This document shows, in pieces, positions 21,126-63,673 of a DNA stretch of 64,000 nucleotides. The position numbers were made by a program, and so were the translations under genes. Below the pieces are notes generated by a model that was given only the letters and a program-made list of their open reading frames with translations, did no database searches and was not told the origin of the DNA. Each line of letters starts with the position of its first letter. The first letter of the stretch is position 1. The DNA comes from Psychrobacillus glaciei (GTDB lineage Bacteria > Bacillota > Bacilli > Bacillales_A > Planococcaceae), in NCBI RefSeq assembly GCF_008973485.1, contig NZ_CP031223.1, positions 2,542,001 through 2,606,000 of the forward strand, given 5' to 3'.

Positions 21126-21210
21126 AGTATTCCCCCTTAATGAATTTGTATATTTTATATGACGAATAAAAAGCTCATTTTGTTTCGTTAAATAAGAATA
21201 ACGCTAGCTA

Positions 21211-21480
21211 CCTTTAAGTGCACCTGGTCTTTTCTATTTCCAGAGTTCTTTGGACGAAACATTGGCTACACTATTAACGAAGAATTTTATGGAGGATCTT
21301 GTGGCAGATGTTTGTCCGTCGCCCTCTTGAAATAGGTAGAGACAAGGTACATTAGGTTTGGATATTGAGAGAATAAATCCTATTCTACTCTTTTAAAAGC
21401 GGACGAAGAGTCAATTTCGTCCGCTCAGTGCTTCTTTAGTAATAGATACTATCTATTTTTTCTCTAGTACCACCTAACTT
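21211..21480 (+). repeat. dispersed intergenic repeat, copy 1 (hairpin-deleted)
   Basis: First of three related copies (others at 39363-39680 and 63151-63490). Shared landmarks: CCTTTAAGTGCA start, TTTCCAGAG, TTTGGACGAAACAT, CTTGTGGC..ATGTTTGTCCGTCGCC, and a perfect inverted repeat AGCGGACGAA/TTTCGTCCGCT (21398-21425). Compared with copy 2 it lacks the internal terminator-like hairpin. No reading frame is conserved among copies. It lies in an 817 bp gene-free gap; 21480-21660 shows nothing recognisable. Confidence 0.85.
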
Positions 21481-21664
21481 AATCATTTAGCCATAAAATG
21501 ATGCGTTCTTTGTCTTTGACGATTGAAATAAAAGGAAAACCAAATAAAGATCAAGAGCTAGCGAATTGAAAGACTTTACTTACCATCGCATACCATTTGC
21601 ATCTCCATCTATACACTCGTTATAGGCATCCGTTCAAAGTATCTTGCTTTTCTTTATTTGACGG

Positions 21665-21755
21665 TTGATCGGAGCGAAAGACGGGGACTCATAGGGGGAT
21701 TGGATTGCTAGCAAATTAAGACCCTCGCCTCACGCGCAGCGAAAAAGCGGTCTTA
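21665..21755. repeat. degenerate GC-rich Bacillaceae-type element (5' part)
   Basis: ttgatcggagcgaaagacgg followed by ggactc and later agaccctcgcctcacgcgcagcg resembles the ttgattggagcg..gcgactcc beginning of the element seen at 62226-62360. Weak and partial. Confidence 0.35.
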
Positions 21756-21768
21756 CTTTCTATTTTAC

Positions 21769-27364: not shown

Positions 27365-27408
27365 GGGTTCTCCCCCTTTAATTCCATTTTATTATACAAG
27401 ATAATAGG

Positions 27409-27560
27409 AAAAGCGCAAGCGCCCTCTAAGAGCACTTGGTCTCTCATAAGCTCCTTCCAAGGCATGCCCACCTAAAAAGACGCTATAAGCATCCTTCGCA
27501 ATGCCTATCCGATCCTAAAACTTGCTTATAAGCACCTAGCCAAATCTACAGAGTTCCTAG
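27409..27560. repeat. second ctataagcNcct repeat array
   Basis: In the gap between mltG and yrzB (27365-27779): ctctcataagctcctt (27441), cgctataagcatcct (27481), tgcctatccgatccta (~27502), ttgcttataagcaccta (~27522) and aatctacagagttccta (~27543). Same motif family as 4395-4610. The array is preceded by ggaaaagcgcaagcgcc, a start sequence common in Bacillaceae repeats. 27560-27730 holds nothing recognisable. Confidence 0.7.
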
Positions 27561-27733
27561 CATCCCATTTAAACGATCAAAGTAAGTAAAAGCTTACCAT
27601 TTTTCCATATCAGATATTTGCTAAATCAACTGGCGTCTTGCATTTCTCGGGTTTGCTATGTACAGTGTGTTTTGTAGTCCTTTCTATTAAAAGAAAATTA
27701 CTTGAGTTGATTCATTTAGCTTTATACAAAAAG

Positions 27734-31664: not shown

Positions 31665-31903
31665 CAAAAAAGCCTTCATCCCTAAAAAAAGGGACGAAAG
31701 CTGTTATTCTCGCGGTACCACCCTAGTTACACAACAATTCATGTCGTGTCTCTCAAGTAACCTTAACGCGGCTAAACGGCAGGTATTAGCTGCACTCAAG
31801 AGTAGCTTTCCAACTTGTTAGTTTCTGAAGATTCTTTCAGCCAAGGAATCTTTCTCTTTTTCAGGTAACAAGTGTACTTTCTCTGTCATCATTTTGCTCT
31901 ATG
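31665..31903 (-). promoter_or_regulatory. T-box riboswitch of alaS
   Basis: The T-box core AACTAGGGTGGTACCGCG (31711-31728) is followed by a terminator stem AGCTTTCGTCCC/GGGATGAAGGCT with TTTTTT (31665-31702). In stem I the 5' side has AGTA (S-turn) and the 3' side reads GAAAGCTACTC, giving a candidate GCU (Ala) specifier codon. It fits uncharged tRNA-Ala sensing. Confidence 0.93.
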
Positions 31904-38053: not shown

Positions 38054-39340
38054 TTGAGCAATGAACCTTTAGCATATCGAATGAGACCAGAAACAATAGA
38101 TGAATTAGCAGGCCAGCAGCATGTCATAGGCAAAGATACCGCTTTATATAAAATGATAAAAAACGGGCACGTCCCTTCTATGCTTTTATACGGTGATCCT
38201 GGCGTCGGTAAAACTTCACTTGCTTTCGCAATCGCAGGCACGACTAAACTCCCTTTTGTTGCTCTAAACGCTACTAAAGCCGGCAAAAAAGATGTAGAAG
38301 ATGTCGTGGCAGATGCACGATTAACCGGGAAAGTCATTTTGTTTTTAGATGAAATCCATCGATTCAACAAGCTGCAACAGGATACACTTTTACCTCATGT
38401 AGAAAACGGATCTATTATACTAATTGGTGCAACAACTGAAAATCCCTTTCACGATGTAAATCCGGCAATACGATCCCGTTGCGGAGAGATTAAACAATTA
38501 AAGCGTTTAACAGCTGAAGATGTTGATATGCTTCTTGAAAGAGCATTGGAGGATAAGATTAAAGGGCTTGGAAGAATGCAAATTGACCTAAAGATCGAAC
38601 AAAGAAAGAAAATAGCAGAAGCAGCAAATGGGGATGCAAGAAAAGCCTTAACACTATTAGAATCCACGATATTCGCAAGCTTTGAAGAAAATGGTGTGAC
38701 AAAAGTGGAAGATTCTATATTGAATAGTCTAGTAGATAGAGTCGGCGTGTTTGGAGATAAAAAAGGATCTCATTTTTATAATCTTTTATCTGCACTGCAA
38801 AAATCGGTCCGCGGAAGTGATACAGATGCCGCTCTTTATTACCTTGCACATTTACTAGAGAACGGAGATTTAGTCGCTGTTTCGAGAAGATTGCTCGTCA
38901 TGAGTTATGAAGATATTGGTCTTGCGAACCCTACTGTTGGACCACAAGTTCTAGCTGCAATTCAAGCCGCTGAAAGACTAGGGCTACCAGAAGCACGTAT
39001 ACCACTCGCTAATGCGGTAGTGTTAATGTGTTTATCAGAGAAATCAAACTCTGCATATGCTGCTTTAGATACAGCGATTACAAGTATTCATCAAGGAAAA
39101 ACTGGAGACATCCCGAGCCATTTAAAAGATACGCATTACGCTGGAGCAAAAGACCTTGGGCACGGAGGATACATTTATCCGCATAATCATAAAATCGGTA
39201 CTTTTGGTGGCTGGGTCAACCAAACCTATCTACCAGATAATTTAGTTGGAACAAAGTTTTATAAACCAATAGAAGCTGGCGAAGAAAAACGTCTTGCAGC
39301 TATTTACAGTCGTTTGGAGAAGTTTAGAACGGAGAAATAA
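38054..39340 (+). CDS. rarA: replication-associated recombination protein RarA (MgsA family)
   Basis: 428 residues from TTG 38054 (SD AAGGAGAG). Clamp-loader-like AAA+ ATPase: RPETIDELAGQQHVIG, Walker A GDPGVGKTS, Walker B FLDEIHRFNK, sensor GATTENPF, then the tetramerisation domain (YYLAHLLENGDL, SYEDIGLANP). RarA acts at stalled forks. It is divergent from cymR and followed by the second copy of the dispersed repeat, whose internal hairpin could end its transcript. Confidence 0.95.
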   Translation: MSNEPLAYRMRPETIDELAGQQHVIGKDTALYKMIKNGHVPSMLLYGDPGVGKTSLAFAIAGTTKLPFVALNATKAGKKDVEDVVADARLTGKVILFLDEIHRFNKLQQDTLLPHVENGSIILIGATTENPFHDVNPAIRSRCGEIKQLKRLTAEDVDMLLERALEDKIKGLGRMQIDLKIEQRKKIAEAANGDARKALTLLESTIFASFEENGVTKVEDSILNSLVDRVGVFGDKKGSHFYNLLSALQKSVRGSDTDAALYYLAHLLENGDLVAVSRRLLVMSYEDIGLANPTVGPQVLAAIQAAERLGLPEARIPLANAVVLMCLSEKSNSAYAALDTAITSIHQGKTGDIPSHLKDTHYAGAKDLGHGGYIYPHNHKIGTFGGWVNQTYLPDNLVGTKFYKPIEAGEEKRLAAIYSRLEKFRTEK

Positions 39341-39362
39341 TGAATAAGAAAAATACTAGTGT

Positions 39363-39680
39363 CCTTTAAGTGCATCTGGTCTTTACTATTTCCAGAGTGC
39401 TTTGGACGAAACATCAGCTACACTATTAACGAAGAATTTTAGAGAGGATCTGGAAGTAAATGCGTCACTTCCAGGTCCTCTCTTTTCAGTAATCTTGTGG
39501 CGGATGTTTGTCCGTCGCCCTCTTGAAATAGGTAGAAACAAGGTGCATTAGGTTTGGTTAATGAGAGATTAGATACTTTCCAATTCTTTTAAAAGCGGAC
39601 GAAGATACAATTTCGTCCGCTCAGCACTTCTTAATCAATAGATATTATCTATTTCCTCAAATTCCACCAAATCTAATTAT
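39363..39680 (+). repeat. dispersed intergenic repeat, copy 2 (full form)
   Basis: Same landmarks as the copy at 21211-21480, but with an intact internal hairpin at 39444-39480 (GAGGATCTGGAAGT/ACTTCCAGGTCCTC then TCTTTT), a good plus-strand terminator after rarA. The 3' stem AGCGGACGAA/TTTCGTCCGCT is at 39594-39621. AAGTGC near the start and GCACTT near the end are inverted. The remainder of the gap to 39855 shows nothing recognisable. Confidence 0.88.
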
Positions 39681-39855
39681 CTACCCACTGATTCATTTAT
39701 ACATTTCACCGAGTGCCGTGGTCTAAAGAGAAGCCACAGTATTACCCGGGGAATATTCGGAGATCTATACTGACGTTCGTTCGTATCTTTCTTTAAAAGA
39801 GTTGATCCATGCAAAAAATATTCACAGCGTCACAATTTATAGTTCACAAAACAAT

Positions 39856-39890
39856 AAAAATCCAGCTAAAAAATCTTTAGCTGAATTTTT
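39856..39890. terminator. bidirectional terminator after the 64-residue gene
   Basis: AAAAATCCAGCTAAA, 5 nt loop, TTTAGCTGAATTTTT; A/T flanks allow use on both strands. Confidence 0.75.
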
Positions 39891-39916
39891 ATCAGAAACC
39901 TAATAAAGTCGATAGG

Positions 39917-40111
39917 TTAAACACCCATTTTTCTTCTAGTATTGCTCACTTTTTTTGTCTGTTGGCTCTTTGCTTTTTGATTGGTTATGGAGCCGTTACC
40001 TGTTGATTTACCGCCAGAAGCTTGATTTTTCTTTTCTTCAAGTCTTTGTTTTACCGCTTCTTGTAAGGTCATTTTCTTTTTCGGAGCATCTTGGTTGTTT
40101 GTTTCAGTCAT
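39917..40111 (-). CDS. small basic hydrophilic protein, unknown
   Basis: 64 residues, start ATG 40111 with a strong GAGGAGGGG SD. Rich in K, Q, N, S; no cysteine, no membrane segment; MTLQEAVKQRLEEKK could be a short helix, the rest looks disordered and ends in RRKMGV. It has its own terminator. I do not recognise the family. Good SD and terminator favour a real gene. Confidence 0.7.
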   Translation of the reverse strand: MTETNNQDAPKKKMTLQEAVKQRLEEKKNQASGGKSTGNGSITNQKAKSQQTKKVSNTRRKMGV

Positions 40112-41100: not shown

Positions 41101-41336
41101 AAAAACCCCCCAGCATTTCTTGCTAGAGGGATTAAAATTGAATTAGGACGAATCCCGATCGTGCCGACAAATAGAGCGTATCGTTTTGAACCCGCAAGTA
41201 GCAGGTGGGTGTCCTCTTTACTATTTCTGGCGTCCCGTTGAAGGGCATGTCATACATAATAAAAGTTAGACTCCCGACGATTTAATTGTTCGGTCAAAAC
41301 TGATTGGCATGCTGCGAACACATCAGGATTCGTATT
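41101..41336 (-). ncRNA. ssrS: 6S RNA (bsrA type)
   Basis: About 235 nt transcript between aspS and tcdA, the location of bsrA in B. subtilis. The 5' end ACGAATCC (41325-41333 region) is the exact complement of GGATTCGT near the 3' end (41148-41156 region), giving the closing stem; the middle has the long open bulge expected of 6S. A terminator (CCCTCTAGCA/TGCTGGGGGG then TTTTT, 41101-41130) ends it. 6S RNA binds sigma-A RNA polymerase as a promoter mimic. Upstream 40952-41100 shows nothing recognisable. Confidence 0.8.
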
Positions 41337-44475: not shown

Positions 44476-44746
44476 TAAAAAAGCCCTCATCCCTTGCTAA
44501 ATAGCAAGGGACGAGAGCTTGTATTAGCTTCCGCGGTTCCACCCTAGTTGGCCAAAAATAATTGACCCTCTCTTTTCTGGATAACGACCAGTACCGTTTC
44601 TGCCTACTAAAGAATATCTCTTTCGACAAAAAACCTCTCGAATGTTGTTCACTGAGTGCGTATGTAGGAAAGATTTCAGCCACGTCTTTCCTTCTCTTTT
44701 CATCCGTTGAAAACAGTTACTTTTTCGGTCATCGGCTTGATTTTGA
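44476..44746 (-). promoter_or_regulatory. T-box riboswitch of hisS-aspS
   Basis: T-box core AACTAGGGTGGAACCGCG (44532-44549), terminator with stem AGCTCTCGTCCCTTGCT/AGCAAGGGATGAGGGCT and TTTTTT (44476-44519), stem I with AGTA S-turn. A CAU near GAACAACATTCG could be the His specifier but pairing was not resolved. A TATAAT -10 is at 44753-44758 with a weak -35. Confidence 0.9.
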
Positions 44747-46421: not shown

Positions 46422-46470
46422 GACTGTAGACAAACTCGATAAAAACTGAGTTTGCCTACAGTCTTTTTTT
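46422..46470 (+). terminator. amidase terminator, sharing its stem with 21776-21817
   Basis: GACTGTAGACAAACTCG pairs with TGAGTTTGCCTACAGTC, loop of about 7 nt, then TTTTTTT. The 5' arm is identical to the hairpin downstream of greA. Confidence 0.85.
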
Positions 46471-46589
46471 AGAGATAATATGTATTTTGATTATCGTCCT
46501 GCGAAGCCAGTGTTCATAGTACTTTAAAGAATTAAATAATGCCGCGGATTTCCTTTTCAGGTGGAAGCGTTCGTTGTGATGGCTAATCT

Positions 46590-46690
46590 GTCTCCGAGGA
46601 TCGAAGGCTAAGAGCGCCACATCGTGTGGCAACGCCTTCGTGACCAACATCCTGTTGGCCTCCGTCTGGAGTCGCCACCTTTCACTTTAA
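46590..46690. repeat. nested hairpin element
   Basis: CGAAGGC (46602-46608) pairs with GCCTTCG (46634-46640) and encloses GCCACA-TCG-TGTGGC (46616-46630); next to it is CCAACA-TCC-TGTTGG (46644-46658). It is the GC-rich part of a 900 bp gene-free stretch; 46700-46930 shows nothing recognisable. Confidence 0.7.
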
Positions 46691-46936
46691 TCCATTAAGT
46701 GAGTAGTATCAGACAAGAAGATTTAGCCCAGCTATCGCTAAGAGGATAGAATTAGTTTAAGTAAACGTAGTGATCATGAATCCTGTAATCGTTGCTGAAT
46801 ACGAAATACTATTGCTTTTTAAAATTTTGGTGAAATTTTGTGCATCCGGATAAAATATAGTTCTCTAACTAATGTCCATAGGATTTACATGTCATCTATC
46901 TTACTAAGCAATTATAATTCTCCCCATACATACTAG

Positions 46937-47080
46937 TTGATTGGTGCGCAGGCGACGACTTCTGCGGGAATAGCAGATGTTTAGTGCACTGAAAGAGAAA
47001 CGAAAGGCCCCGCAGGAACGCAGTGACGAGGAGACTGAAGCCATGCCCGCGAAAAGCGTCCGCCGTAGCGGAAAGCAACG
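46937..47080. repeat. GC-rich Bacillaceae-type intergenic element, full-length
   Basis: Begins ttgattggtgcgcaggcg, then gacttctgcgggaatagc, ggccccgcaggaacgcag, cgaggagactgaagcc, and ends gcggaaagcaacg. This architecture (ggcgacgactYctgcggga ... ccccgcaggaacg ... gcggaaa) is a well-known abundant repeat in Bacillaceae genomes (recalled, not searched). Internal complementarity ctgcggg/cccgcag suggests a folded RNA or DNA hairpin. Confidence 0.75.
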
Positions 47081-47169
47081 TCATTCAAATGCTACTCTTC
47101 TTAAAAGTACCGGACATCTTTTTGCCCGGTTTTTCTTATTAATTAGAACGGAAGTATAATCGATTACAG

Positions 47170-63079: not shown

Positions 63080-63150
63080 GCTATTTATCCCTCACAATCG
63101 TCAGACCTATTATAGCATAATAGTATAGACAATAAAAAAAACGAAAGGAA

Positions 63151-63490
63151 CCTTTAAGTGCATTTTGTCTTTACCATTTCCAGAGTGTTTTGGACGAAAC
63201 ATTTGATCCTGAGGTAACTCGTAGCAAAAAAACTGGCTATACTTTTACCATTAAAGTTTTGGATCGTGAAGTGACTGCATCACTTCCAGTTCCTCTTTTT
63301 TGGTAATCTTGTGGCGGATGTTTGTCCGTCGCCATCTTGGAATATGTAGAGGCAAGGTGCATAAGGTTTGGTTTAATGAGAGAATAAATCCTTACCTATT
63401 CTTTTAAAAGCGAACGAAGATACAATTTCGTCCGCTCAGCACTTCTTTATCAATAGATGCTAACTATTTTTTCTAAGTTCCACCAACTAC
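63151..63490 (+). repeat. dispersed intergenic repeat, copy 3 (longest)
   Basis: Same landmarks as copies at 21211 and 39363. It carries extra sequence after TTTGGACGAAACAT (gatcctgaggtaactcgtagc...) and an internal hairpin at 63261-63294 (GGATCGTGAAGTGA/TCACTTCCAGTTCC then TTTTTT). In the 3' stem (63409-63436) one base is changed (AGCGAACGAA), giving a mismatch. Lies in the 640 bp gap upstream of ruvA. Confidence 0.88.
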
Positions 63491-63562
63491 TTCTAAACTC
63501 TCTTTATTAGCACTAGTTCATTATTTTGACCTAGCATTTTGTCTTATTTACTTTTCGCGTTA

Positions 63563-63628
63563 ATTTCCGCTGCAGGCGGTGATGGCTCATCGCTCACCCC
63601 ACGGAAAGCGTCCGACTGCAGCGGAAAT
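63563..63628. repeat. fold-back element with 13 bp terminal inverted repeats
   Basis: ATTTCCGCTGCAG (63563-63575) and CTGCAGCGGAAAT (63616-63628) are perfect inverted ends around gcggtgatggctcatcgctcacccc..ggaaagcgtc, which matches the 3' half of the element at 62226-62360. Confidence 0.8.
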
Positions 63629-63673
63629 CAATCTGTTCTTCGCTCACAAGTTTATATAATTTCTTATTCTTCA

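Follow-up and report, generated by a model that had tools for sequence, protein, structure and literature searches.

Transposition of IS91 has been modelled, in the portion of text available from PMC5714925, as proceeding through a circular single-stranded intermediate, with completion during replication of the target. Small elements of this family are not new in principle, since short derivatives of IS801 move: fragments of 229, 360 and 679 nt do so, and the targets of IS801 are GAAC, GGAC, CAAG and CGAC (PMC3189936, in the part available). Helitrons are rolling-circle transposons with a 3´ hairpin followed by CTRR, which insert at A|T (between A and T) and form large non-autonomous families (PMC4778049, as far as its accessible text goes). 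Finally, the transposons of the IS200/IS605 type enter the lagging-strand template (PMC6006769, in excerpt).

The repeat family described below, found in the chromosome of Psychrobacillus glaciei, has points in common with each of these systems. The explanation that best accounts for all the data jointly, and that we hold to be highly probable, is that the repeats are non-autonomous IS91 elements, mobilised in trans and inserted as a single strand 3´ of terminators, on the lagging-strand template.

The repeat family and its long hairpin

The window, that is, the whole stretch of 64,000 nucleotides that was analysed, corresponds to positions 2,542,001–2,606,000 of a 4.33-Mb chromosome in which dnaA lies at base 22. 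A preliminary description had reported in it a structured repeat family of three copies, at 21211–21480, 39363–39680 and 63151–63490. The sequence blocks quoted for these copies are present, on the + strand and between genes, and all of them could be located, although the 5´ arm of the 3´ stem of copy 3 carries one change (AGCGAACGAA). However, the copies had been drawn too short, at 270–340 bp. The alignment of 56 copies with their flanks placed a sharp 5´ border at TAAGAAAAACGCAAGCG, which precedes the earlier start of 39363 by 18 nt, and the true starts of the three copies lie at a TAAGAAAAACGC-like sequence (39345, 21193 and 63133). Beyond the earlier 3´ end, the similarity continues through several alternative modules to a second border, ...CATATACTTTCTTATCTT, which is well preserved in part of the copies; the three elements run on to approximately 39847, 21764 and 63670, each adjoining a hairpin. 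The following features were delimited in the window:

39345..39847, + strand (transposase sense, −): copy 2, whole putative non-autonomous element; start from the 56-copy alignment, end uncertain by about 10 bases
39363..39549, + strand: copy 2, conserved long-hairpin module, from the 56-copy consensus fold and pair counts in relatives
39594..39621, + strand: copy 2, short stem-loop AGCGGACGAAGATACAATTTCGTCCGCT
39852..39894, − strand: terminator-like hairpin abutted by the left end of copy 2, with the tail TTTTGTGAAC; the end of copy 2 was set where this stem begins
21193..21764, + strand: copy 1, whole element; end set by eye, then the hairpin ACTGTAGACAAACTCG...CGAGTTTGTCTACAGT
63133..63670 (genome 2605133 to 2605670), + strand: copy 3, whole element of 538 bp; left-flank hairpin GGTCGCTC..GAGCGACC
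27405..27728, + strand: shorter element, alike in its right end but with another interior, adjoining a hairpin-like stretch; end set by eye
46472..47138, + strand (transposase sense, +): putative non-autonomous element with another interior, ending in the IS-type right end ACCGGACATCTTTTTGCCCGGTTTTTCTTA (extent set, and IS compared, by eye)
46592..46658, + strand: Bacillaceae-1 RNA (Rfam RF01690), inside the preceding element, 75.7 bits
47162..47293 (genome 2589162–2589293), − strand: remnant of the long-hairpin module, 23.9 bits

The family is also far larger than first reported: a covariance model has at least 129 matches in the genome (E of 0.001 or better), and the three copies are among them. 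The model is palindromic, and nine opposite-strand duplicates were removed by hand from 138 matches at this threshold; the resulting 129 copies are a lower bound because 150 of 2303 candidates were scored. A BLAST search with copy 2 against its own genome gave 41 near-full-length matches (at least 279 of 318 bases; among 223 candidates, 40 were scored), and 94 genomic sites matched a 16-nt core when one mismatch was tolerated, compared with 0 for a reversed-pattern control, so that chance is excluded. Beyond this genome, BLAST with copy 2 found matches in 18 of 61 genomes. The model of the long hairpin was matched in 28 of 200 genomes of the host family, belonging to three of 19 genera, with 152 unmatched genomes of the family not itemised; all of the 19 same-genus genomes itemised, the present one included, have a match. 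Rfam gave no match to the repeat with the window at gathering score or with one full element at E up to 1.

The 48 elements whose two ends could be paired by pattern span 187 to 1140 in length, most of them 0.4–0.9 kb (the elements of the three window copies are ~0.5 kb), and 11 of these 48 abut another copy head-to-tail. The left borders of the repeats are often degenerate: 48 of 108 5´ ends were pattern-paired with a 3´ end, some of them spuriously, which counts against the explanation proposed here.

Folded with RNA parameters, the consensus (380 nt, −138 kcal/mol) forms over its first ~200 nt one long hairpin, which every full copy carries, and after it the AGCGGACGAA stem. Within this hairpin, GGACGAAACAT is paired to ATGTTTGTCC, which belongs to the same module. 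In copy 1, most of the hairpin tip has been lost by internal deletion. The hairpin was drawn by eye before pairs were counted in 17 sequences from relatives, a set of 29 having been reduced by leaving out L001, L002, L007, L009, L018, L061, L062, L075, L078, L079, L081 and L087 (L085 and L088 had been omitted before the set of 29). In these sequences 88.7% of the pair cells are paired, compared with 37–47% when the partner is slid; both sides have changed in 17 of 55 pairs, compared with 7.0 in shuffles (0 of 500 reach 17), and the covariation score is 0.188 versus 0.096. Support is highest at the tip, where three helices hold 10 of the 17 double-changed pairs, with none in helix 2 and one in helix 3. 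RNAalifold, applied to a mixed alignment, found 15 tip pairs, 13 of them with both sides changed, and nothing more, because copies of the host lineage and those of relatives differ by a bulge. Based on the paired cells, the double-changed pairs and the covariation score, the pairing of the hairpin is conserved, as DNA or as RNA. The structured repeat of the preliminary description is therefore real and keeps its pairing through compensatory changes.

These compensatory changes would suit a family of regulatory RNAs or sRNA genes with alternative folds, spread by ordinary duplication, which was the reading favoured at first. However, a structure of single-stranded DNA would predict conserved pairing equally well. 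No promoter-like site was found around copy 2 with a sigma-70 pattern, the only one searched, and at least 129 copies with a sharp 5´ border, ends like those of an IS91 element, tandems and a direction set by replication rather than by genes (see below) speak against it, so that a regulatory RNA family is considered very unlikely.

Other features were observed in the same DNA. A module, GGAGTGAAAGGTGGCGACTCC..GGAAAGCGTCCGCCTG..GGAAATCA, which we take to be a common intergenic repeat of Bacillales, lies at 63556–63640 of the window and in the 3´ part of many elements, in several species. Ordinary 6S RNA and two T-box leaders occur at 41148–41332 (−), 31687–31898 (−) and 44504–44741 (−). Partial DnaA-domain matches of similar size at 838152, 1856496 and 2184585 of the genome (270-aa frames) are perhaps, at a guess, an IstB-type gene in several copies.

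An IS91-type partner with the same ends

The search with the second border led to copies in the genome that are bounded by CATATACTTTCTTATCTT and also contain an open reading frame. This frame encodes a 428-aa protein that matches the Pfam pair PF04986/PF14319 (Y2_Tnp, 1.5e-41; Zn_Tnp_IS91, 7.5e-19) and the NCBIfam model NF033538 of the IS91 family (2.3e-90); Y2_Tnp and Zn_Tnp_IS91 were its sole matches above cut-off, with no helicase domain among them. The autonomous insertion sequence (IS) is present in four copies, 98–100% identical, whose alignment delimits an element of ~1.56 kb with the left end AAGATAAGAAAGTATATG, bearing the hairpin ACCATGAACACTGGGTTCATGGT, and the right end GGACCGGGCGTCTTTTTGCCCGGTTTTTCTTA.

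The border CATATACTTTCTTATCTT of the repeats is the boundary of the four IS copies as well. Read in the transposase sense, the better preserved repeats start with AAGATAAGAAAGTATATGG, as the IS does, and end in a hairpin plus GTTTTTCTTA; the complement of AAGATAAGAAAGTATATGG occurs 21 times exactly and 42 times with up to two mismatches, some of these being the IS copies. In relatives, the right end of the repeat at locus L071 agrees with that of the IS at all but one of 32 bases, and L064 and L070 carry recognisable variants of it. A hairpin is found at the right (origin) end in 26 of the 31 loci given, with TTTTCTTA or TTTTTCTTA, a count that leans towards hairpins since the best-folding TTCTTA site within 420 nt was taken. 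Because their ends match those of the IS copies, the repeats are best read, from sequence, as non-autonomous, MITE-like elements of the IS91 family rather than as switch-like RNAs, with an HUH/Y2 transposase and a zinc-binding domain in an autonomous partner that has the same ends. What counts against this explanation is that the repeats do not take their interior from the present IS.

A mobile, MITE-like origin had already been suggested as an alternative in the preliminary description, on the grounds of inverted AAGTGC and GCACTT. The kind of element was thus anticipated correctly, but those hexamers are not its ends, since the borders lie elsewhere and the autonomous relatives lack target duplications: one of 4 nt was seen in one of 24 (of 26 loci given, these 24 had both ends). 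The classical MITEs that DDE transposons give rise to, which have terminal inverted repeats, would likewise be small, non-coding and of high copy number, and the element does have the short complementary ends TAAGAAA/TTTCTTA, although by eye these amount to 7–8 bases and no more. With target duplication so rare and the ends common to an IS with an HUH transposase, we give such an origin practically no credence.

Some elements carry another interior. The element at 46472–47138 lies after a hairpin with a T-tract (46422–46463) and runs against the replication fork, and its Bacillaceae-1 RNA belongs to a set of at least 67 genomic matches above cut-off (380 candidates, of which 150 were scored). 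Among 68 listed matches, 20 lie inside long-hairpin elements, all running with the fork, and the other 48 divide 29 to 19 relative to it. The Bacillaceae-1 RNA looks like cargo of mobile elements, a 67-nt piece of it and not the repeat itself. It was described as a candidate RNA, and the words 'transposon' and 'IS91' are absent from the text of PMC2864571.

Landing sites and orientation

In the transposase sense, the left end is usually preceded immediately by a stem-loop with a T-tract. Relatives of the IS were collected from GTDB genomes, giving at least 59 loci, of which 48 were given (match from residue 1), 44 were placed and four were unplaced. A stem of at least 6 plus a T-tract precedes the left end in 37 of the 44 placed loci. 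In control windows the rate is 4–5% (47 of 1115 for the same strand, 56 of 1115 for the opposite one), these windows being 300–1500 nt upstream in the same loci and mostly gene sequence. The seven loci without a stem of 6 count against the proposal. An alternative left-end pattern with shorter windows had given 19 of 44 at stem 6, with a control of 2.0% of 1084, and was superseded by the better anchor. The loci are nearly all from Bacillota (Planococcaceae-type genera, Rossellomorea, Bacillus, Paenibacillus, Cohnella, Sporomusa, Lentibacillus, Fundicoccus and others), with several insertions per species in some (Rossellomorea, Cohnella, Sporomusa) and one from a Schekmanbacteria MAG, with a stem of 5.

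The repeats of P. glaciei show the same arrangement. With a stem of at least 6 plus a T-tract, 23 of 37 non-tandem left flanks are positive, compared with 0 and 1 of 37 right flanks scanned on the one and the other strand; at a stem of at least 5, the figures are 27 versus 5 and 5 (37 each). About ten of these 37 3´ ends are, by reading, spurious internal matches or duplicates, and the mechanical counts were kept. At copy 2, the hairpin 39894–39852 has 20 pairs, three of them G-C, and the region 39250–40000 contains two terminator-like sites, compared with a mean of 0.4 in shuffles. Three of the four IS copies begin directly where a repeat has its right end, and the fourth is preceded by another hairpin with a T-tract. 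The right end of an element would thus serve as a target in the same way as a terminator, since both these three IS copies and 11 of 48 repeats in tandem are found there. The right-end stems targeted by the three IS copies are short (scores of 5 and 4 for the two scored), so that insertion can do without a strong stem, or else the T-tract weighs more.

The bases at the junction were also compared. In autonomous relatives, the left flank is A in 21 of 24 and the right flank T in 19 of 24, with both (A|T) in 18 of 24, and in the repeats of P. glaciei the right-flank base is T in 35 of 52, compared with 0.35. In the four IS copies of this genome the base preceding the left end is C instead of A, and the one that follows the right end is T three times and C once. 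This C and the short right-end stems of the repeats slightly lower our confidence in the explanation. Their target is TTAC or TCAC, compared with a T-tract followed mostly by GA or AA, and mostly A|T, in relatives. A GAAC/CAAG-like target is a feature of IS91 too, and lies outside the definition of the family in Pfam and NCBIfam. The GAAC/CAAG-like tetranucleotide of characterised IS91 members was not seen at the targets of the relatives or of the IS copies in P. glaciei.

In three Paenibacillus loci (L172, L173 and L175), arrays of short units lie upstream of the transposase, as in TTATTTAAACATATAAGAATTTATATG..GGGGTTAGCGAAGCTAACCCC of L173. They may represent minimal left ends repeated in tandem, with hairpins resembling terminators.

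Group IIC introns insert downstream of intrinsic terminators, and a retroelement of this type would have both post-terminator insertion and a strand bias in common with the repeats. However, the Rfam group II intron models had no match to one full element at E up to 1, and the ends of the repeats equal those of an IS91 element, which leaves an intron-type origin extremely unlikely. The IS91 reading is retained in what follows.

The copies of P. glaciei point, in the transposase sense, with the movement of the fork in 121 of 129 cases, taking dnaA as the origin and the point opposite as the terminus. In relatives the counts are 7 of 7 (G003), 57 of 61 (G004), 47 of 52 (G008) and 29 of 29 (G015), based on the matches listed (7 of 16, 61 of 104, 52 of 90 and 29 of 66, respectively), with one listed match on contig 4 of G004 omitted. 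Over the five species, 261 of 278 listed copies follow replication. In G003, G004 and G008, the start of the sequence record differs from dnaA, and it is at dnaA that the direction flips.

The orientation could instead stem from gene direction or from selection, the elements still being derived from IS91 and the lagging-strand template playing no part. Most genes point the way replication proceeds (256 of 370 open reading frames of at least 100 aa in the DNA examined run with the fork), and an insertion between genes must pass selection to survive. However, the elements, with arrays collapsed, run 83 to 5 with the fork. At convergent gene pairs, where one terminator per direction is expected and transcription predicts 1:1, 37 elements run with the fork and 5 against it (p = 4e-7), and all seven elements between two lagging-strand genes still run with it. 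Usable context was lacking for seven of the 88 elements in these gene-context counts, which place the terminus at 2,095,000, where the copy direction flips, and are circular for copies near that point; the copy at 2,109,356 runs against the fork when the terminus is placed half a chromosome from dnaA. A cruder gene caller, since superseded, had given 98 of 103 with the fork and 39 to 4 at pairs with a sense gene upstream and an antisense gene downstream. On these counts, gene direction does not explain the orientation bias, and the rival account is considered unlikely, although selection after insertion could add to the bias. The strand entered is the lagging-strand template. The tendency of the repeats to lie behind terminator hairpins, nearly all in one direction relative to replication, suggests that terminators are the landing sites of these mini-transposons.

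Proposed mechanism and comparison with known systems

The repeats retain both of the ends handled by the transposase, with a non-coding and strongly folding cargo. In the mechanism proposed, the transposase, acting in trans from the four near-identical autonomous IS copies, would free one strand of a repeat element, and the freed strand would join a target of hairpin plus T-tract, mostly at A|T, at a time when the lagging-strand template exposes it as a single strand. Read in the transposase sense, the element finishes on the right in a hairpin plus TTTTTCTTA, and its target consists of a hairpin plus T-tract, so that an intrinsic terminator would resemble the element's own end, and the element would enter immediately 3´ of the terminator. 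Once inserted, it would present a similar target again, giving rise to head-to-tail tandems, and since the lagging-strand template is single-stranded at the fork, nearly all copies would come to point with fork movement. From these patterns we infer the action in trans of the IS transposase, the single-strand insertion with its chemistry, and the recognition of the target as a terminator DNA hairpin rather than via transcription. The ~200-nt hairpin might act as a single-strand origin that turns the transferred strand into duplex, a speculation to which a small chance is given.

The weakest link of the argument concerns other genomes. At E of 1e-30, the transposase was found in three of 61 genomes (P. 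glaciei, one of another genus of the family and one of another family). No transposase of this type was found in the other 18 same-genus genomes searched (E of 1e-30 or better), all of which have repeats, and mobilisation by the IS is a weak claim there because the enzyme is missing. Either the non-autonomous families persist longer or spread further than their enzyme does, or they use another one. A wider generalisation, towards which the data incline us with some reserve, is that a Bacillota-wide IS91 clade uses intrinsic terminators as attachment sites, with a right end that is a terminator mimic and an A|T site linking it to the Helitrons. In this view the transposase would read the hairpin and T-tract of a terminator in single-stranded form on the lagging-strand template, and non-autonomous families of high copy number would profit from it.

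Terminator targeting together with the replication-linked orientation of a family of more than 100 copies is what seems new here. Neither appeared among the open-licence PMC papers found by joining IS91 with terminators, judging by their titles and the beginnings of their abstracts. If the mechanism holds, the transcription signal behind many operons would also be a landing platform for transposons, providing safe intergenic insertion, and an intergenic repeat of more than 100 copies would be explained together with its strand bias. Moreover, a curated 'RNA family' such as Bacillaceae-1 could be transposon cargo.

The IS91 family (IS91, IS801) shares its transposase family with the IS partner (Pfam PF04986 and PF14319; NCBIfam NF033538), as well as the lack of target duplications and a hairpin in the right end. 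In contrast to the targets described for IS801 in the available part of PMC3189936, the IS relatives studied here use a hairpin plus T-tract, mostly at A|T. Furthermore, unlike the IS801 fragments, the repeats make up a family of their own, high in copy number and with its own cargo, and are not fragments of the present IS. Group IIC introns differ in being RNA-based, with ribozyme domains, none of which was matched in one full element.

With the IS200/IS605 and REP elements, the likeness lies in an HUH enzyme, the lagging-strand template (PMC6006769, in part) and palindromic derivatives, and the present family would offer a test for fork-coupled transposition of IS91, as documented for IS200/IS605 members in the same excerpts. 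The difference is that the partner transposase here is of the IS91 type. IS200/IS605 and REP elements also have other ends and targets.

The Helitrons are resembled in the rolling-circle type, in the large non-autonomous families, in the hairpin near the 3´ end (followed by CTTA here, compared with CTRR) and in the A|T insertion of 18 of 24 relatives. The differences are the absence of the Helitron helicase domain from the 428-aa transposase, a bacterial host, a target that bears a hairpin and, for the IS copies of P. glaciei, insertion at C|C or C|T rather than A|T. If the mechanism is correct, the A|T site and the hairpin-CTTA end would draw the bacterial IS91 elements nearer to the Helitrons.
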